Shown: positions 1,779 through 61,900 of the stretch, in pieces
Numbering within the stretch: position 1 is the first letter of the stretch
Layout: every line of letters starts with the position of its first letter
From: Branchiostoma lanceolatum
Lineage: Eukaryota; Chordata; Leptocardii; Amphioxiformes; Branchiostomatidae
Direction of reading: 5' to 3'
NCBI RefSeq assembly: GCF_035083965.1
Contig: NC_089726.1
Location: 6,887,501-6,951,500 of the forward strand
DNA length: 64,000 nt
Position numbers and translations under genes: made by a program
The notes under the pieces: generated by a model
What the model saw: only the letters and a program-made list of their open reading frames with translations
The model's database searches: none
What the model was told of the DNA's origin: nothing

Positions 1779-4700
1779 TCAACTGGACATTCCTGTGAAC
1801 TGAAGTTGTTGGCCCATCTGTGAAAATAAACAACAGTTACAACCATTTTAAAGCCACTTACGTCAGGTACATAACACCAGCTTCAAGTCTCGATTTCAAA
1901 TACAAAAATGTGCTTGTACAAGATAAATGCAACATATTTTTCAGGTGTTCGTGTAAATCATAGTCAAGTTCTTGCATTGACAATGGCATGATGTATTCAT
2001 CTTTATATGGGAGAACTGAGTTTTGCTTCAATTTGCAGAACAAACCTGCCTTTACTGGATTTTCCTGGCAATAGGATCATAATTCAGTTGCAATTTCTAG
2101 TTTGAAACTAAATTTGAACCCAGAAATGTAGCAAGCATTCAAGAAACAGTGTGAGGACTATTCTACAAGTATGGAATCAAACTCTGTAAAAATAATGTGA
2201 GGGCTATTCTACAAGTATGGAGTCAAAGTAAAAAAAAATAGTGGGAGGGCTTTTCTACAAGTATGGAATAAAACTCTGTAAAAATAGTGTGAGGGCTATT
2301 CTACAAGTATGGAATCAAACTTTCTAAAAATAGTGTAAGGGCTATTCTACAAGTATGGAGTCAAAGTCAAAATATAGTGGGAGGGCTATTCTACAAGTAT
2401 GGAGTCAAACCTTTGACAAATAGCGGGAGGGCTTTTCTACAAGTATGGAATAAAACTCTCAAAAAATACTGGGAGGGCTTTTCTACAAGTATGGAATAAA
2501 AAAAATCCTTTGCTGCAGTCTATGGGTGTGTGAACGTCTGAGTGAGTACAGAAAGAGAGAGAGAAGACTTACTTCCAGTACAGGAATCCTAGTACCCACC
2601 TGAACCTGTGTGGGGTATGTGTATGTCATCGTGGTCTGGCCGTCTGTGGAGATGATGTTGGCAGCTACAACAGACAAGAGCACAGAAGGGTTAGATTGTT
2701 TGTCAAGACTTTCAGTACTAATGTCATTAACATTTCTTTTATTAGTCTTCTATTTGCTGCATCTAAACCAGTATAACAAAAACATGTACTTTCTAAGCAG
2801 TTATTTACAAATTGTTTGACAATTACATGACGCAGAGTGGCAAATAAAGTGTTTTCAATCACTACAACAGTATCAAAATGATACAAAAATACGTCATGTT
2901 ATAAAATCAGCACAAAGACCTTTGTGGATAGTGTGTTGAAGTAATCAGAAGACTTACTGAAAGAATCATCAGCGCCCAGGTCTGACGCCATACTCTCGTC
3001 TCCCGCACCTGTAGTCGATGTGTTCATCCCTCCCTTCTCACCCTTCATGGACTGGAAGAAACACAGGATTTTTTAAAACACCAAACAAATTTGCTACATT
3101 GCAGAATTTGAAGACAAATGACAAACTGTATTTCACAGTATATTGATACAAAAGCTCAATACAACACATCTCGGTGGTTTTTATATGTCAATACAAACCT
3201 TAATAAAAGAAAACTTAGATTCTACTAAAGTAAGTATATTTGTATTTCCTACGTTGGAGAAAGCTCACAAACCTTAGTAAAATAGAACTCATAAGATTCT
3301 ACTAAAGTTAAGTATTTCCTACGTTAGAGAAAGCTCTCCAACTCTTGCTGAAGACCCTTCTGTATTGTATAGCCGATATAACAACCCTTCAGCATAACAC
3401 ATCAGCTTCCTTGACTCTTACCTCCCTGTACTTCTGAAGGTACAGTTTCAGTGGTTCCACGTAGCTGTCGAACCCCAGGGTCGACATGGCAAACAAGATA
3501 TCCTCCCCATTGATGGTCTTCCTCTTCTCCTGGTGACACCTGTCACTCGCTCTACACAAGCAGTTAGGGATCATATCATCATCATGATCCATGTCACTTA
3601 GAAATTAGAACTGTCTCACTCATTATTGATGTCACCTTGTATTGGCTAGTGGCACATAAAACAGCAACATTCCTTTCTATTTCAGAAGCAGGGTATATCT
3701 TTACAGGGAGGGGTTGCTAGACCTTCCCCTTTAACATGCTTATGTGCCTCAGTGAACATTTGACCCCCATTTTGTGTCCCCTCCGAAAAACCAGTCCAGC
3801 CCCAACCGAGATGCCTTTCCCTGGATTTGAACTGGGGTCTCCCAGGTAAAAAGTAATTGGAACCAGGAGCTCAACTGTGAGACTGCTACCAGTAGCAACC
3901 TCTTTTACTTGTTTCAACCTCTTCCCTGCTGACACCAATTGGAGGTAATGGTTGTTCTACAGCAGGGTTAGGGTTAACTAATATGTGATGATTAAATCCT
4001 TTCTTTTTTAACATCCCCTTAATGACATGGCAAGTTAGCACAGAACTGTTGAAAGGATACTCGCTTGTGATAAAACTGATGAATTCTGACACACACTCCT
4101 GAACACACTCTTTAGCATCCTTGGCAATCTGTGAAGAAAAACACAATAAGGAATTTCAGTTAAACAAGAAGAATCCCCTTATCCAAACATAAACATCAAT
4201 TAGAGATATTTTCATGTTATTTGGTATATAACTAGTTATAAAATAGTCGTCTATGACAAAAGTTCCACAAAATTACATCTAAATCAACCTGCACTTTACT
4301 GTTTCTTTACAACATCAAATTTGTACTGGTACGGTAATACAATAGGTTACAGCATACCGGTGGTTGATACTTTAAACTGGTTGGAAATTTCATATCCTCA
4401 CATAATAAGTGTACAACTAGTACTTACACATTGGACATAGTCAAGCTACATTATCTATAAAACAGTCTACTTTTACTATATGAATGAAATTTACTGGATT
4501 AAAAAGGAACATTTTCTTAAAATACATTGTAATTAAAAACTACATGCTACAGATCTAGACTTCCTATATAGCACAGCAGGGAGGAATGTTTAATCAAACT
4601 TTAATTGTGCAAGTGAGGGTGCGGTTTTATTATGGTGGGTTAGTTTCAATATTCTAGATAACAAAATCACAATATTGACTGAGTGTACTAGCTGTCATTA

Positions 4701-6990
4701 GTAGTATTCTTTTTAACTCTACAAATACATGTAATGCAGTCACTTCAATTCATTTCTGCTTTCGTATCTTGACAACAGTGGTCAAGCACATCTACAAAAC
4801 AAATCCTCGGGCAATTCTACTGACAGGCCCATGCAACTTTGACTCTTTTTTCACTTTCATCACGTATGTATCAATTGAATGACATGCAAATGTTCACACA
4901 TATAGAAACTACTCAAACATGCATATCTATATGGAGAATGTATAGGTGTAACGACAACATTACCTTTTCTTTTTTGGGAATAGCCTTTCTCATAATGCGA
5001 CTAATATTGTGAATGGGCAAAAACCGGTCCTGGGATTGAGCGGAAAAGAAGTGAAAACACAAAGTTAAACGTTTTCTAGGCAGGCAGGGTGGTATATATA
5101 CTCAGAAACGTGCCACTTTACCTTTGCCATTTTGGGGATAGAGTTTTTCATGATGCGACTGACATTGGCTATGGGCAGGAATCGGTCCTAAGAGTGCCGT
5201 AAGGAAGAAGGGCAGAGAATGCAACACACTTTAGGTGTCAGGAAAGTGGGGAGGCTCTCTCTTCTGGTGCAGAATCGACTATATATATCTATGTCCTAGC
5301 CGAGTCAGCTATCAATTTCTGCACACTAGTTGTTACATAGATGGATAAAGCTGGAGCATTAAATGTGTTGATACAGTCACAAGTTAGGACATATCTACCC
5401 ATGGCAATCAATGTAAGCATCATGCATGCAGAAAACTCTATACACACATCATATACAGATTTATAACAATAACTATAGTACATGTTTATCTGTAGAAAAT
5501 CATCTAAAGAAAATCATGAAGCAACATTGCAATTTGGGCTCTGCACAGAGTTGGAAACACTCTAAGGAAATACATGTAGATCTACAACCTACAACATCTA
5601 CAGGAAAAAGAATAACACTTAAACAAAACTTCTCACACAAAAGAGAAGTCTTTGGTAAGGGTAGCTACTTTTAATAAGATAGCATCAACATGTAGAATTT
5701 CATTTTTCGTGAAACAGAAAACTTTCTTTCCAACTAGACCAGGACTGTCTCCAGAACCCATCCCTCCGTCCCCAGACTGAAATTTTCTTGTTGGGATGGA
5801 CAAAAAGTTCACCCCATCCATTAAAAAAATCTGAACTTCATGACATGAAATTGATGGAAATTGCATTTTCTAAGTTCAAAATGAAAAATTTACCCTGGAA
5901 AATTATACCAATGGGTTAACAACTAATGACTGCCTGTGGGATGGAAAAAAATTTGAGCAGGAGACAGCCCTGACCAACATGTAGAATTTTAGGGAAATAG
6001 AAGACTAGACTAGACCCAACTAGACAGTAGACACAAATCATTTTGAAAAGTGAAACCACTCAATTGCAAGAGGAGAGTTACCTGTTCCTGTAGAGGTTCC
6101 ACACCCACGTGCTCACGGAGGCTGTCACCGTCTTTGTGACCGCCGTCATCGTCTCCGCCACTCGCTATACTGTCATTGGCCGACGCACCTGCTGCACCTG
6201 GAAGCATCAAGGGACAGGTGGCTTTACCTTCCAGTACACCTCTCAGTACAGGTGCTGTCTGTCAGTCTAGTAGTACAGACTAGGACCTATGCATGTTTTA
6301 GGCATTCGTTGGTCTCGTAAGGCTTTGAATAGTACAGTGCTACACAACATACTTATCAATACACTTGGGACATGTTAGTTACTCTGCACAAAAATACAGT
6401 TCAACAGGCTACAAAGTACCTAAGATTATAAGAGGAGGACTTTGGTGTTTTTTCTTTTGATAAACTACAATTTTGTTTGCAACTTTTTCATCAGCAAGAC
6501 ACAGAACTCTTAATGATTTGAAAAAATCCTTAATTGAGGTGTTCTCTTACTGAAAGCTACAATCAAAACAAAATTGGTTTTATCCTTTGACCTGCAGTAC
6601 TTAATGAATGAACACAACATTTCTCCAATGTTCAAAGGTGTTTCACCATCATTCATTACAAGAAACACTAGTTTTACTTACTATCATCCAGGACATAGCT
6701 GTAGTCGTTGGTCAGGAGACCTTGTGTGCCGTCTGCTCCCTGTGGGGTACCTTCTAAGTGAACAGCCATACTGCAAAACAAAGAGGTAATGTTGGTTGAC
6801 TTACTGACAAGGGACTTCTGTCTGACTCTCTGAACCAAGAAGCTGGCTGAATCATTACTAGTATACAGTATAACAGACATCAACAGATAGCAATGCACAG
6901 AACTAGTATTGAGTATTACCTGAGGGTGCCAGTGTCATCTGCCGTGTGATCTGTGCTTTGATCCATTTGTCCTTCTCCACCACCATCCAT
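1779..6990 (-). CDS. NFYB: Nuclear transcription factor Y subunit beta (NF-YB)
   Basis: NF-YB pairs with NF-YC through a histone fold and, with NF-YA, binds CCAAT boxes. Coding exons, 5' to 3': 6990-6920, 6770-6682, 6197-6082, then one of 5187-5122 or 5029-4964, then 4128-4061, 3551-3422, 3051-2958, 2664-2600 and 1817-1779 (stop TGA). All junctions are GT-AG and in phase; the protein is 245 aa. The N-terminal 92 residues are acidic and poorly conserved. The histone fold follows: alpha-1 ([15 protein letters not shown]), then [16 protein letters not shown], then [17 protein letters not shown] and [19 protein letters not shown], nearly identical to vertebrate NF-YB. The C-terminus has TYTYPTQVQ and ends QLQFTGMSS. 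The start ATG at 6990 lies 4 bases inside its exon (acceptor TTGCAG), so at least one 5' non-coding exon lies upstream, towards 8.0-8.4 kb. The oddity is the pair of alternative alpha-1 exons. Confidence 0.93.
2150..2505. repeat. Minisatellite, about 46-bp unit, eight copies
   Basis: The core TTCTACAAGTATGGA recurs eight times at 41-49 base spacing, each followed by a variable A-rich tail and GTGRGGGCT. It lies in the last intron of NF-YB. No reading frame or known element is recognisable. Confidence 0.8.
3197..3343. repeat. Two-copy tandem duplication of about 72 bp
   Basis: Both copies contain GATTCTACTAAAGT and TTTCCTACGTTRGAGAAAGC. It lies in the NF-YB intron between exons 3551-3422 and 3051-2958. 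No function is apparent. Confidence 0.6.
4964..5029 (-). CDS. NFYB: NF-YB exon 4b, variant histone-fold alpha-1 version
   Basis: A second 66-base, phase-0 exon homologous to 4a. It encodes DRFL followed by [18 protein letters not shown]. The acceptor (ATCCCAG) has its own pyrimidine tract, clearly related to that of 4a, and the donor is AAG/GTAATG. It keeps the SRIM core and length but changes Ala to His and Val to Ile in the PIAN motif, Lys-Asn to Arg-Lys, and makes the exit more charged. There is no stop and no broken splice site. It can replace 4a without frame change; using both would add 22 residues and probably disrupt the fold. This looks like a mutually exclusive exon pair, but no transcript evidence is available here. 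Confidence 0.8.
5122..5187 (-). CDS. NFYB: NF-YB exon 4a, canonical histone-fold alpha-1 version
   Basis: 66 bases, 22 codons, phase 0 on both sides. It encodes DRFL followed by [18 protein letters not shown], close to the usual animal NF-YB alpha-1 (PIANVARIMKNAIP). The acceptor is CTCTTAG after a pyrimidine tract and the donor is AAG/GTAAAG. It is separated from its duplicate by a 92-base intron (5030-5121). As the upstream and more conserved copy, it is probably the default exon. Confidence 0.88.
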
Positions 6991-9205: not shown

Positions 9206-12101
9206 ATGTTCATCACCGTGAAGATATTACAAGGCAGGGAATGTTGCATAGAAGTAAGTATATCCACGGGAAATACTCAGAAAGGGGAGGGGGGCAAGGT
9301 GTGCACGGTGTGAGAACGGGAAACAACACCTTCTGTAGCCAGTCTATCGTTATTGGAACTGTAATCTTGTGGAGTTTTAGTACTCTTTGATTCTCATCAA
9401 TATATTTTTGACAAAATTATGCAAAATGTTTCCAAAGGAAAAACAGTGTGATCATTATATAATTTATGGTATAAAGGTATAAAGGTATAATTTTGACCTG
9501 ATCAGGCCAAGGCTGTTGTGGTCATACAGTGATAGGACACAGAAGAGGAAACATGAACCTGTTAAATTTCCCCATTCGGTCACCATAGCCACCCCTAGCC
9601 TGAATTCAATCAAGCCTCCTGTGACTGCTCGCCGCCCTGTAACCGCCTCGCAACCCAACCCTGGGAGGGGAGAGAAACCCCCTGACAGCTGGAGTTTGCG
9701 TTATACAGACTAAGCCACCCCTACTATTCTCGATAAGTGTGTTGGGTTTTTTAAAGTGCATGAATTTGAGCCGAGGCATCGAAGCACTATCTGTTCACTG
9801 ACGCAACCCTCGCACTTTGACCAGATTGGGCTCCAACTGGATCCACAGAGTCTTTGCTGTAACTCGTTAATCAATCAATCAATACAATCATATGATCTCA
9901 AGTAACAGATAGCTTTAAACAATGCTTACAGTTAGATGTGCAAAGGTTAGGTGTGACAGGTCGTTCAGTGTACTATAACCAGCTGCTGCCACGCCGCGGG
10001 ACATGATCAGTGAAGCTGGTGTGTTACGCCGAATGCTGGTTGTACTGGCTATATAGATACAGATAATAGTATACTGTAATTCACTTCATCTTCATGATAA
10101 AAAAATTTCAGGGTGTAACTTACTGTAAGGAAAATGGACATTTTCACCGAACTTTAACTTCACGGTAGCGGCAAGTGATTTACAGAACGGATGTGTGAAG
10201 GAATCATAGATAATAACAACAAGTTTTTTCACGGTGATGATAAGTTCATGTTACAGAGGTGACTGTGAAAACAGTGAACATAATGATAAAGTTACAGTGA
10301 ACAATCAAGAAACAAGAATTGCAGTATGTATTTGTCTCTGTACAGGTTGCAGATGCAGACTCTGTCATGTCAGTCAAGCAGCTTGTAGCTAGAGAACTCG
10401 ATGTGCCAGTGGACCAGCAGAGATTAGTTTTCAGGGGCAAAACATTGTCAGGTAACAGACCATTTATAAGGATCATCTTTACTTTCATGTACATATATTT
10501 ATAATCTAGCCTAAACAGATGTTAAGGTGGGAAATTGTGTTGTCATCTGACTGCTAAGGGTCTCTTACAGCTATTCAACACTGTGGTGGGTGGCTGTCAG
10601 AGAAGTCTGGTAGTCAGAAAAATTATGATCTTACACCCAACATCTGCTTGGAGATCAGTACATTTGTTGAATTTTGTTCTATGATAACTATAAAGTTTAG
10701 AATCAGAGTAATAAAAATCTGGCAAAGAGTCATGTTACATTTCACCACATGTATTTAATCCAGAAAAAAATTGTTGCTAGAGGCTGAAAAGTGGCAAAGT
10801 GCCCTATTGTAATTATTGATTTCACTAGTCCATTGTCACCAATCAATGCACAATCCAGTTTTGTAAACTTGAATCAATGCTTGATATAGGTGCATTCATT
10901 GGTGATGTACATGTAGCAGGATAACTCGGCACCTGGGACAACTCGGCCCCTAGCCATTTGGGACAACTCGGGTTGTCCCAGATGCCGAGTTGTCTCGGAA
11001 TCCATTGGTGACAGTGGACAACTTACAAATGCAAATACAAATGTAAAAAACATTTGTTAACTTTTACGTCGCATATTTTGATTTACAATTTATTGTTTCC
11101 ATAGATTCACAATGTCTTGGAGACTACAACATAGGACCAGACGCCAAAGTACACCTCATGGTTCGTAAAGTGGAGAAACAGCAAAGCAGTACAGATTCCA
11201 CAGACAGGAAGGACACAACGATACTCTGGGACGAGACGAAAAAGTTATTGTTAAAACATTTTAGCCCCCAAGACGCAGACAAGGTCATGCAGAATTTTAG
11301 AAGGGTGGGTACATGAAATATGATTTATATATCCAGATTGTATAACAACAAGTATGAAGTAGCCTGGGCACCATCCTCCGTCTTTTTGCTTGGTAAACAC
11401 CGAGCAAGCAAAAAGAATGAGCCAGCGATAAGCTAAGGAGGATGGTACCCAGGCTAAGTATGTAGCGCATTATGCATGGTCATTGGTGTAACTTAATCTT
11501 GGTTTTATCCCTGTTCATGGTGTACATGTAGGTGTGGATTTACCACAAACCTTAAAGTTAAGGTTAGACATGTACTTTTTGAAGAGTATTTTTGAAAGAA
11601 AATTCCATTGACGAAATTGAAAGACATTTGATTTTCTCCTATGTTGTATTTTCTTCTTAGCCTGAGTACCATCCTCCATAGTGACCGCTGGCTAAAAAAA
11701 AACCTTCTTGCTAACAAAGAATTAACAAGCGATTTTTTTTTAGCCAGCGGTCACTACGGAAGATGGTACTCAGGCTATTTTCTTCTAGGCCTATACATGT
11801 ACTATATGAAGAGTGTTTTGGAAATAAAATTCTACTGACAAAATTGAAGGGCATTTGACTAGGGTCCTATGTTTGCATTTTCTTCTAGGACTTTCCAACA
11901 ACAAAACCAATAGAAGTTTTGAAAAGTAGTGAAAAATCTTATGCACTTTGAATTGAATAACATTCATTAGCTTGCTTATTTTTTCTCTCCTAGGAATTCG
12001 AATCTACGATAGCAAGTGTTAGCCTGGATGATCTAGAGAGAATGGCAACAGCTAATCTTCAGAAACGTCATTTCATCGGTGACCAGTCAACTTCATCATA
12101 G
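9206..12101 (+). CDS. UBL4A: Ubiquitin-like protein 4A (Get5 homologue)
   Basis: UBL4A is part of the BAG6-UBL4A-GET4 complex, which hands tail-anchored membrane proteins to the GET3/TRC40 targeting factor and sorts failed proteins for degradation. Coding exons: 9206-9253, 10346-10451, 11105-11304, 11994-12101 (stop TAG), all GT-AG and in phase, 153 aa (human form 157). Residues 1 to about 75 are a ubiquitin fold: MFITVKILQGRECCIE, then VDQQRLVFRGKTLS and LGDYNIGPDAKVHLMV, which align with human UBL4A. A helical C-terminal region (KLLLKHFSPQDADKVMQNF; VSLDDLERMATANL) matches the Get4/BAG6-binding tail. There is no terminal Gly-Gly, so it is not conjugated. The start ATG is the only one giving the conserved first strand. 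It is transcribed divergently from NF-YB. Confidence 0.93.
9500..9860. repeat. Interspersed repeat remnant, probably SINE-related
   Basis: Contains CTCGATAAGTGTGTTGG, which also occurs at 36178-36195 and, on the other strand, inside the tRNA-derived SINE at 20994-21360. It ends in a short AATC run near 9870-9890. It lies in UBL4A intron 1. Confidence 0.45.
10921..10998. repeat. Palindromic repeat in UBL4A intron 2
   Basis: ACTCGGCACCTGGGACAACT and its complement (AGTTGTCCCAGATGCCGAGT in related form) surround a short centre. This makes a hairpin of about 78 bases that could be a tiny MITE. Confidence 0.6.
11361..11456. mobile_element. Small foldback MITE, copy A
   Basis: Inverted ends AGCCTGGGCACCATCCTCC and GGAGGATGGTACCCAGGCT surround a short AT-rich centre with further pairing (CTTTTTGCTTG with CAAGCAAAAAG). 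It lies in UBL4A intron 3. A related element starts 200 bases downstream. Confidence 0.7.
11658..11778. mobile_element. Small foldback MITE, copy B
   Basis: Inverted ends TAGCCTGAGTACCATCCTCC and GGAAGATGGTACTCAGGCTA share the outer motif of the element at 11361-11456, but the inner sequence differs (AGTGACCGCTGGCTAAAAA paired with its complement). Two members of one family with exchanged centres therefore lie in the same intron. Confidence 0.7.
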
Positions 12102-58993: not shown

Positions 58994-61900
58994 ATGGGAA
59001 GAACAGTGTGGTTGCTGGGATCCCTGCTCGCTGTAGGAATTGCGTACATCTTATACGAACCCAGCTTTGACCCTGGTATGTATTGTGGCAAACATACATG
59101 ATCATTCTTTTACATATGAGGATATATACATATATGTATATTTTATATATTCATATATTGTATTAGCAACTTTTAAATGAATCTATACATAACAACTCAT
59201 CACATTATATTGTGTAAAAGAAAGAAGAAGGGTTTCATAATATTACTAAGTCTTATTTGTGATATTTTGAATCCCCCTGGTTCTTCTGCTGTGAAACAAA
59301 GCAAAACTTTTCAATGGACAATACAAGCCTTCATGCCAATCAGTGGGGTTCCAGGGCATTGCCCCATACAAAACTACTGTAGTTTGGTCACAACTCCAGG
59401 GCACAAAAAAAGGGTCATACTAGCTACAATCTAGGTTAAGAACATGTGCCAACTTAAAGGCAAACACTTCTCTTAGTTACGTGCAGGAATGTGTTTATTG
59501 GCAGATGTTTACTTTTCTATGTTTAGGAATACATTATATGTCTGGTATGGGCAGTGATGAGGGACCATGTGACTAAGACTATCGACTGTGACCACATCTT
59601 GTTTGAAATTTTTTGGCTACCAGCCACAATCTAAGTTTATTCGTTCAGACCCTTGTAGTGCCTAGTGGAACATACATGTAGGACAGAGTGTTTCCTTGCT
59701 GTTTCAGTACCAGGGTATATTTTCACAGGGAGGGGTTGCTAGCCCTTCCACTTGAGCATGATCGAGACACCTCCTCAAACACGGGACCCCCATTTTACGT
59801 CCCTTCCAAAAGATGAGTCGAACCCAACCAAGATGCCCTGACCAAGGATTAAACTGGTGTCTCCAGTGCAGTTACCAACTATAATTGGAACCAGGAGCTT
59901 GACATTGAGGCTGCTACCAGTGGAGATAGAGATCCCTAGCCAATTAACAAAAAACATATACATGTAGTTATTAGTTGACCAACAGCTTTTTTTGGAAATT
60001 TCCTAAAAGAGGCCTTACGGGGTGCAAGAGTGGTGATCACAGGCTGCAGTTCCGGGATTGGGGAGCAGATGGCGTACGAGTATGCTCAGTTGGGGGCAAA
60101 GGTCATCATCACAGCCAGGAGAGAGAAGAGACTACAGGAGGTAAGGAACGTGATGATGGCAGGTGATGATGGCAGGACTGTGTGTCTGTGTGTTTAAAAG
60201 AAATTGTCTAAAACAAACAAAAAAATGAAAATCTCTTTTTCAAAACTGATCAGACATGCTGTGACCTACCACAATTTATACCAAAACTAGCTTGGTGTGC
60301 GTTGCCTTGTATATACATGTAATCCTATTCTAGACTGATGGACCATTCATGCATGCATGTTGTGTACTATGTATGTATGTATGTATGTGTGCATGGAGAG
60401 AGAGACAGAGAACCCAACTGTCAATTATCATGATAGTGTTATCAAAGAGTAAAGCTGGTCTCGTAGCTCATGGACGAGTCCACCGACGCTGAACTGATCG
60501 TCCGGCAGGATGCAAAGGAGCCGATTATGAGTGTTATCAAAAGTGTTTGAAATTTGGATCAAAGAGGAATCAGAGACTATCTCCATAGAAAAACATACTT
60601 TTTCTAAGCAATCTCACAATAACCTTTGACTTTTCCTGTTACAGGTGGTGGCTAAGATGAGTGACCTCGGTGCCCAGCAGGCTCTCTATGTAGCAGGGGA
60701 CATGGGGAAGGCTGAGGACTGTGAGAGAACCATCCAGACTGCAAAGGACAAATTTGGTAGCACAAAAGCCTTTCTTACATAAACCATTAACTTCTTTTAC
60801 CTTTCTGTTCCGAATCTGTTGATTATCTTGATAATGTACTTGACCGTCTTCTTCCTCTTGCCATATATGTGTCATTTGCTCTTTTCGTGTCTCAGTATAA
60901 GGTTAGGGCATAAAGCATAACACACGTAAATAAAGCTTGCAATTTGTTATTTGTTCCTTTAGTTTGTTCCCCACGGTGACCACGAAATACTCTTTTCAGA
61001 ACTATAGACCAAGGAAATACCCATTACATAAGGTAATGATAATAAACTTTATGTTGCACAGCATCGACTGTATGTTACCTTGAAGTTGATGCTCATAGAA
61101 AATTGTTTTATTTTCTGAAGGTGGACTCGATATTCTGGTGATCAACCACCTGGCATCAACAATCGACAACAAGTTCTTCCAATTTCTGTGGGACGGGGAC
61201 ATGGACTATGCTGAGAAGCACATCCAGGCCAACTATGTCAGCTACATCCGGCTGGCTTCCCTGGCCTTACCTATGTTACACAAGAACAGTGGCAGCATTG
61301 TTGTGGTGGGGTCGGGTGCAGGTAATTTGGGTTTTACCTTTAGTTTAGTTACTAGACTCTTTAGTGTAGAACCTTTACTGAACGCTCTGATGCCCCTACG
61401 ACTGACTAAGCTATGGGAGAGAGTGAGTAAGTGAGTACTAGACTCCGTGGGTTACTGGAAAAATAGTAGAAGTTAGCCAGTTATAGAGATAACTAAACTT
61501 CAGCAGACAAATCTGTATTCCAATCATTATGACTGGCTAAGGCCTGTAATAAAACATTTCCCAAATATGGGGCAATTCTACAATTTTTTCAGTCGGCAAT
61601 GAGTCTTTTTTATTTGCAGCCTTGCACTGGAAATGGACAGTATAATATACATATCAGTAACAACTGAAAATTTCTACCTCTTCTGACTCTTCCCCTTTTT
61701 TCCAGGCAGATTCGGTGTTCCTATGAACACTATATACTCAGGCACCAAGTTTGGTCTGCGTGGATTCTTTAGCACCTTACGGCAAGAGCTTCACATCCAG
61801 GAATCTAATGTCTCTGTCACTTACATTGTGCTGGGGTCCATCGGCACTGAACTTGGCAAGAAAGCAATCAAGGTACTTGACAGATCTGTTTTACTCTAAG

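Follow-up and report, generated by a model that had tools for sequence, protein, structure and literature searches.

Two versions of the first histone-fold helix in one amphioxus NF-YB gene: a candidate pair of Rbfox-regulated alternative exons

Can a single gene provide the transcription factor subunit NF-YB with two different versions of the first helix of its histone fold? This question is raised by a 64,000-nucleotide stretch of the Branchiostoma lanceolatum genome (contig NC_089726.1, positions 6,887,501 to 6,951,500 of the forward strand; hereafter the window), for which an earlier annotation, here called the original prediction, had proposed an NF-YB gene with two mutually exclusive-looking exons encoding helix α1. 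Our results suggest that it probably can. The best overall explanation, to which we assign a probability of about 0.6, is that the two exons, designated A and B, are used alternatively and that an Rbfox-type splicing regulator is involved in, or favoured for, the choice between them.

As judged from family profile and closest relatives, the gene at positions 2600–6990 of the window (minus strand) encodes NF-YB, as originally proposed, and is predicted to dimerise with NF-YC and to bind CCAAT as a trimer. The protein reaches 96.3 bits against the PF00808 profile with exon A and 93.0 bits with exon B (cut-off 21.4), and in both versions the best match among solved structures is human NF-YB (E 7e-50 for the 89-residue histone fold with exon A, 1e-47 with exon B). 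In our gene model, exons e1, e2, e3, A, e5, e6, e7 and e8 join with the coding frame intact. The pair is preceded by the constitutive exon e3 (6082–6197) and followed by the constitutive exon e5 (4061–4128), which begins helix α2; these borders agree with the junctions given in the original prediction (e3 ending at 6082, e5 at 4128–4061). Glu52, Lys78, Glu82 and Glu86 of human NF-YB border the pocket for Arg266 of NF-YA (PMC13071875; here and below, citations are to excerpts of the papers). Residues aligned to all four are present in e3 and e5, the one corresponding to Glu52 (numbering from PMC13071875) lying in the Glu-Gln end of e3.

The two α1 exons adjoin each other on the minus strand. 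Exon A, the canonical version (5187–5122), and exon B (5029–4964) are each 66 bases long, in phase 0, open in frame and bordered by AG and GT, just as predicted, and their sequences agree at 50 of the 66 bases and 15 of the 22 encoded residues. When every 66-base stretch of the 64 kb, on either strand, was scored against the α1 peptides, A and B scored 113 and 109 and the next best stretch only 28. Thus, the resemblance of A and B is not due to chance, and the window holds no third α1 copy. The splice sites were ranked among 305 AGs and 339 GTs using a simple matrix of the vertebrate type. The claim that both exons have good acceptors and donors holds for the acceptor of B (rank 7 of 305) and for both donors (ranks 9 and 12 of 339 for A and B), but less so for the acceptor of A (rank 36 of 305), and neither donor has G at +5. 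Neighbouring internal exons of the same length and phase, with similar sequences and intact splice sites, are the arrangement by which mutually exclusive exon candidates are recognized (PMC5740500). By its sequence arrangement, then, the tandem α1 pair is such a candidate.

Has exon B been maintained by selection? Substitutions between A and B are strongly skewed towards synonymous sites (pS 0.56, pN 0.16, dN/dS 0.18, Fisher p 0.003), in line with a tandem duplication that diverged under coding constraint. The flanking intron sequences, which had been described as related, are not: in six local alignments, covering 30, 60 or 90 bases on each side, between 184 and 384 of 500 dinucleotide shuffles matched or exceeded the real score, so that the flanks are no more alike than shuffled sequence. 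Divergence has thus wiped out the duplication in the introns but not in the exons, unless the duplicated unit carried almost no flank. We also simulated decay with the 16 differences fixed, taking as the joint outcome no stop codon, at most seven residue changes and a similarity at least as high as observed. The probability of this outcome was 0.0008–0.004 when all changes were placed in B and 0.011–0.035 when mutations were tried equally in both copies, while the residue count alone, with all changes in B, gave 0.02–0.04. Evidence for past constraint on exon B is therefore good though not overwhelming, and B is quite likely a functional exon of some kind.

If exon B is translated, what would it do to the protein? 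By family profile, isoform B is nearly as good an NF-YB as isoform A, whereas a protein with neither exon drops to 67.6 bits. Changing A residue by residue towards B traced 2.8 of the 3.3-bit deficit to a single substitution, Ala to His (99.3 to 96.5 bits). The other six changes, scored singly, gave 99.1, 99.1, 99.3, 99.8, 98.5 and 99.5 bits and together cost about nothing. The original emphasis on the Ala-to-His change is thus well justified. The site corresponds to position 60 of human NF-YB, near the start of α1 (counted from residue numbers in PMC13071875), and is occupied by Ala in 12 of the 12 distinct solved NF-YB/HapC sequences read (five human constructs, six plant and one fungal; a parasite NF-YB-like chain in the match list was left out). 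Ala is also found in L001 (DRFLPVANISRIMKKALP), the one NF-YB relative among genome contigs in our contig collection, which is eukaryote-like and serves here as one additional sequence only; a search of viral contigs yielded no relative. The accompanying replacement of Lys-Asn by Arg-Lys costs 0.2 and 0.0 bits and is ordinary for the family, the solved plant sequences read having KK, KR or RR at these positions. It had been described as compatible with the fold on the ground that the same pair occurs in plants; the exact pair RK does not occur in the sequences read.

Helix α1 of NF-YB makes stabilising contacts with the DNA backbone (PMC5222873), and it is here that the two exons may differ in effect. 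Lys/Arg, Asp/Glu and His number 7, 2 and 1 in exon B, compared with 5, 1 and 0 in exon A, and B is less similar to human NF-YB (12 identical residues of 22, against 15 of 22 for A); the residues at the helix boundaries are kept in both. Since the residues of the NF-YA pocket reside in e3 and e5, the choice between A and B leaves them unchanged, and both isoforms should for this reason still form the NF-Y trimer. Through its two additional Lys/Arg, one additional Glu and the His at the position of residue 60, exon B would be expected to influence DNA backbone binding or dimer stability rather than the reading of CCAAT, and the His in particular may alter the backbone contacts.

What could choose between the exons? 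The gene contains five copies of UGCAUG, the Rbfox-binding motif, all of them flanking the pair; they do not figure in the original prediction. Three follow exon B in its proximal downstream intron, at +41 (4923–4918), +76 (4888–4883) and +129 (4835–4830), the layout found at Rbfox-regulated exons. The other two, which overlap, lie upstream of exon A at distances of 243 and 239 bases (starts at 5430 and 5426; about 5435–5425). Among the 435 hexamers present in the two outer flanks of the pair, each of 250 bases, UGCAUG is the most enriched (p 7e-6, corrected 0.003), and in the 150 bases after B it is the most enriched of 140 (p 6.6e-5, corrected 0.009), the background in these tests being drawn from this window only. 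Only 3 of 20,000 dinucleotide shuffles of those 150 bases contained three copies, and of 20,000 random placements of the same flank geometry in the window 0.11% reached five. Typical Rbfox motifs lie closer to their exons than the roughly 240 bases that separate the upstream pair from exon A, which makes the role of that pair less sure. According to the known position rule, Rbfox bound upstream of an exon leads to skipping and Rbfox bound downstream to inclusion (PMC5840707); combined with the motif layout, the rule would have B favoured over A wherever Rbfox is present. The cluster is likely an Rbfox signal.

A number of observations weigh against alternative, Rbfox-guided use of A and B. To begin with, support for switching between the exons, and for exon B as such, comes from the sequence of one genome. 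The residue count alone carries little weight if mutations are allowed equally in A and B (P 0.11–0.20), and a stricter decay simulation, in which synonymous differences were fixed, is borderline (p 0.03–0.06). Moreover, dN/dS is an average over time and is compatible with a recent loss of function of B. Exon B might therefore be a relic, whether or not it was ever in use, that the spliceosome now passes over, with exon A making the only protein. The His where all the solved sequences have Ala would fit a relic, as would the 3–6% that the stricter simulation leaves to decay. Such a relic would nevertheless have to retain an open frame, two intact splice sites with an acceptor stronger than that of A, a profile score close to that of A, and a low dN/dS between flanks that no longer align; it would, besides, be followed directly by three UGCAUG. 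On balance we find this explanation unlikely, though not negligible.

Further difficulties concern exclusion itself. The acceptor of exon A is weak, and none of the generic devices that keep two exons apart was found. As 66 is a multiple of three, transcripts with A, with B, with both or with neither are all in frame, so that neither a frame shift nor nonsense-mediated decay could enforce exclusion. In the 92-base intron between the exons (5121–5030), candidate branch points, taken from a simple YTNAY scan, lie 57 and 70 bases from the donor of A and thus beyond the 50-base limit of steric interference, a class that comprises 57 of 629 human clusters (PMC5740500). No incompatibility between U2- and U12-type sites was detected: the U12 consensus is matched at 5 of 9 positions by the donors of e3 and B and at 4 of 9 by that of A, and the acceptor of exon A has a U12-like branch motif (7 of 9) of unclear meaning. 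Competing pairing among the three introns did not exceed that in shuffles, 12, 28 and 31 of 60 of which were as strong. With these four devices rejected, the pair remains a candidate for the mutual exclusion originally suggested, and a regulator would be needed if A and B are indeed exclusive. Motifs for PTB, CELF, MBNL, NOVA, ESRP and hnRNPA1 were also considered around the pair, by counts only.

The same results allow for joint inclusion, in which one protein would carry two α1 helices in tandem, always or in some transcripts. Transcripts with both exons are in frame, the branch points of the short intron are far enough from the donor, and the A+B protein has the highest profile score of the four forms, 104.4 bits. 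A higher profile score is, however, no proof of folding or function. If joint inclusion were constant, one copy should drift freely, yet both remain similar to human NF-YB and both have kept the helix-boundary residues. We consider joint inclusion quite improbable.

The UGCAUG statistics call for caution as well. The motifs were noticed by eye before testing, and the flank sizes were chosen afterwards; the two upstream copies overlap and are not independent; and some repeated hexamer occurs in 15% of random 150-base windows. Conceivably, then, A and B are used alternatively without Rbfox, the cluster being coincidental and other factors or splice-site strength deciding. Besides the post hoc discovery, this would be consistent with the abundance of UGCAUG in the window (66 copies on both strands, about twice the uniform-composition expectation) and with the existence of another cluster of three within 150 bases, the sole one, at 60350–60390 on the plus strand. 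Coincidence is harder to reconcile with the first rank of UGCAUG after correction for all hexamers (7e-6 × 435 = 0.003), with its rarity in shuffles and with the spacing of the three downstream copies, which overlaps the region of Rbfox motif action (PMC5840707). A choice made independently of Rbfox therefore seems improbable to us.

Taken together, alternative use of A and B with the involvement of Rbfox may be pictured as follows. An old tandem duplication of the α1 exon would have been kept, with both copies serving as alternative exons. The pre-mRNA would be spliced from e3 to A or from e3 to B, and then to e5, yielding two forms of NF-YB with all but helix α1 and loop L1 in common. An Rbfox-type protein would bind the three UGCAUG downstream of B, perhaps also the pair upstream of A, and would thereby promote B over A in Rbfox-expressing tissues, leaving A to be used elsewhere. 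In its most specific form, the proposal is that of a tissue-specific Rbfox switch of the first NF-YB helix, producing two CCAAT factors with a different grip on backbone or nucleosomal DNA, one of them with a possibly pH-sensing His; in that form we regard it as tentative. The UGCAUG layout directly predicts which regulator makes the choice, and where.

The closest known system appears to be the α1/α2 switch of MEF2. Both MEF2D and MEF2C (PMC7140685) are ubiquitous transcription factors in which two mutually exclusive exons lie within or next to the part that binds DNA, and in MEF2D the second of them is favoured by Rbfox acting from a motif in the downstream intron (PMC5840707). In MEF2D, however, the exchanged segment is described as a docking and regulatory site for PKA, whereas in NF-YB it would be a histone-fold helix itself; furthermore, MEF2 splicing has been shown by experiment, while the switch in NF-YB is proposed from sequence. 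In C. elegans, the Rbfox proteins ASD-1/FOX-1 regulate pairs of mutually exclusive exons in egl-15 (exon 5) and unc-32 (exon 7), where the choice depends on UGCAUG in a flanking intron (PMC3585155). These are a receptor and a proton-pump gene rather than transcription factors, and a single conserved motif was tested there in vivo.

Splice forms are also known to diversify the NF-Y trimer, as exemplified by the long and short isoforms of NF-YA and by those of NF-YC. Those isoforms vary in their activation domains, with the interaction and DNA-binding parts identical (PMC8234210), whereas the NF-YB pair would bring variation into the histone fold. Organisms with more than one version of the NF-YB histone fold include plants, with their multigene families, and planarians and acoels, with their paralogues (PMC5222873, PMC11802806), but there the versions are encoded by separate genes and not by two exons of one gene. 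We found no report of alternative α1 exons in NF-YB in the excerpts read of open-licence PMC papers, and nothing on NF-YB together with Branchiostoma in the open-licence PMC literature. NF-Y binds a large share of promoters, and its histone-fold dimer is usually treated as invariant (PMC8234210). If our explanation is right, NF-Y would have an isoform switch located in its histone fold and not in an activation domain. Were α1 exchangeable by splicing, nature would also offer a protein pair with which to test the contribution of histone-fold backbone contacts to CCAAT binding.

The remainder of the gene model, likewise on the minus strand, comprises e1 (6990–6920), the first coding exon found, which begins at ATG and has the donor GTAATA, e2 (6770–6682), e6 (3551–3422; end of α2, α3 and αC), e7 (3051–2958) and e8 (2664–2600). 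A crude pattern search downstream of e8 did not find the last coding exon or exons. A minisatellite with a 46-base unit in 7.8 copies (2144–2501) lies directly 3′ of e8. The intron between e5 and e6 (4060–3552) looks minor-class (U12-type): its donor GTATCCTTT agrees with the U12 consensus at 9 of 9 positions, and its branch motif ATCCCTAAC at 7 of 9, with the branch A 13 bases from the acceptor. A U12-type intron would explain why the e5 donor and the e6 acceptor score poorly as ordinary splice sites. The NF-YB of L001 (about 5000–5310) appears to be interrupted by an intron at the codon where e5 and e6 meet. This eukaryote-like sequence lies in a contig labelled as a Euryarchaeota metagenome-assembled genome (PBDU01000015.1) and is probably a contaminant there.

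Elsewhere in the window, two segments of the plus strand (10301–10504 and 11047–11313) probably belong to a UBL4A gene: they encode a ubiquitin-like domain (PF00240) and a sequence that falls slightly short of the cut-off for the Tugs domain (26.8 versus 27.7 bits). Finally, 61099–61431 on the plus strand contains an exon of a short-chain dehydrogenase gene (PF00106, 27.5 bits).
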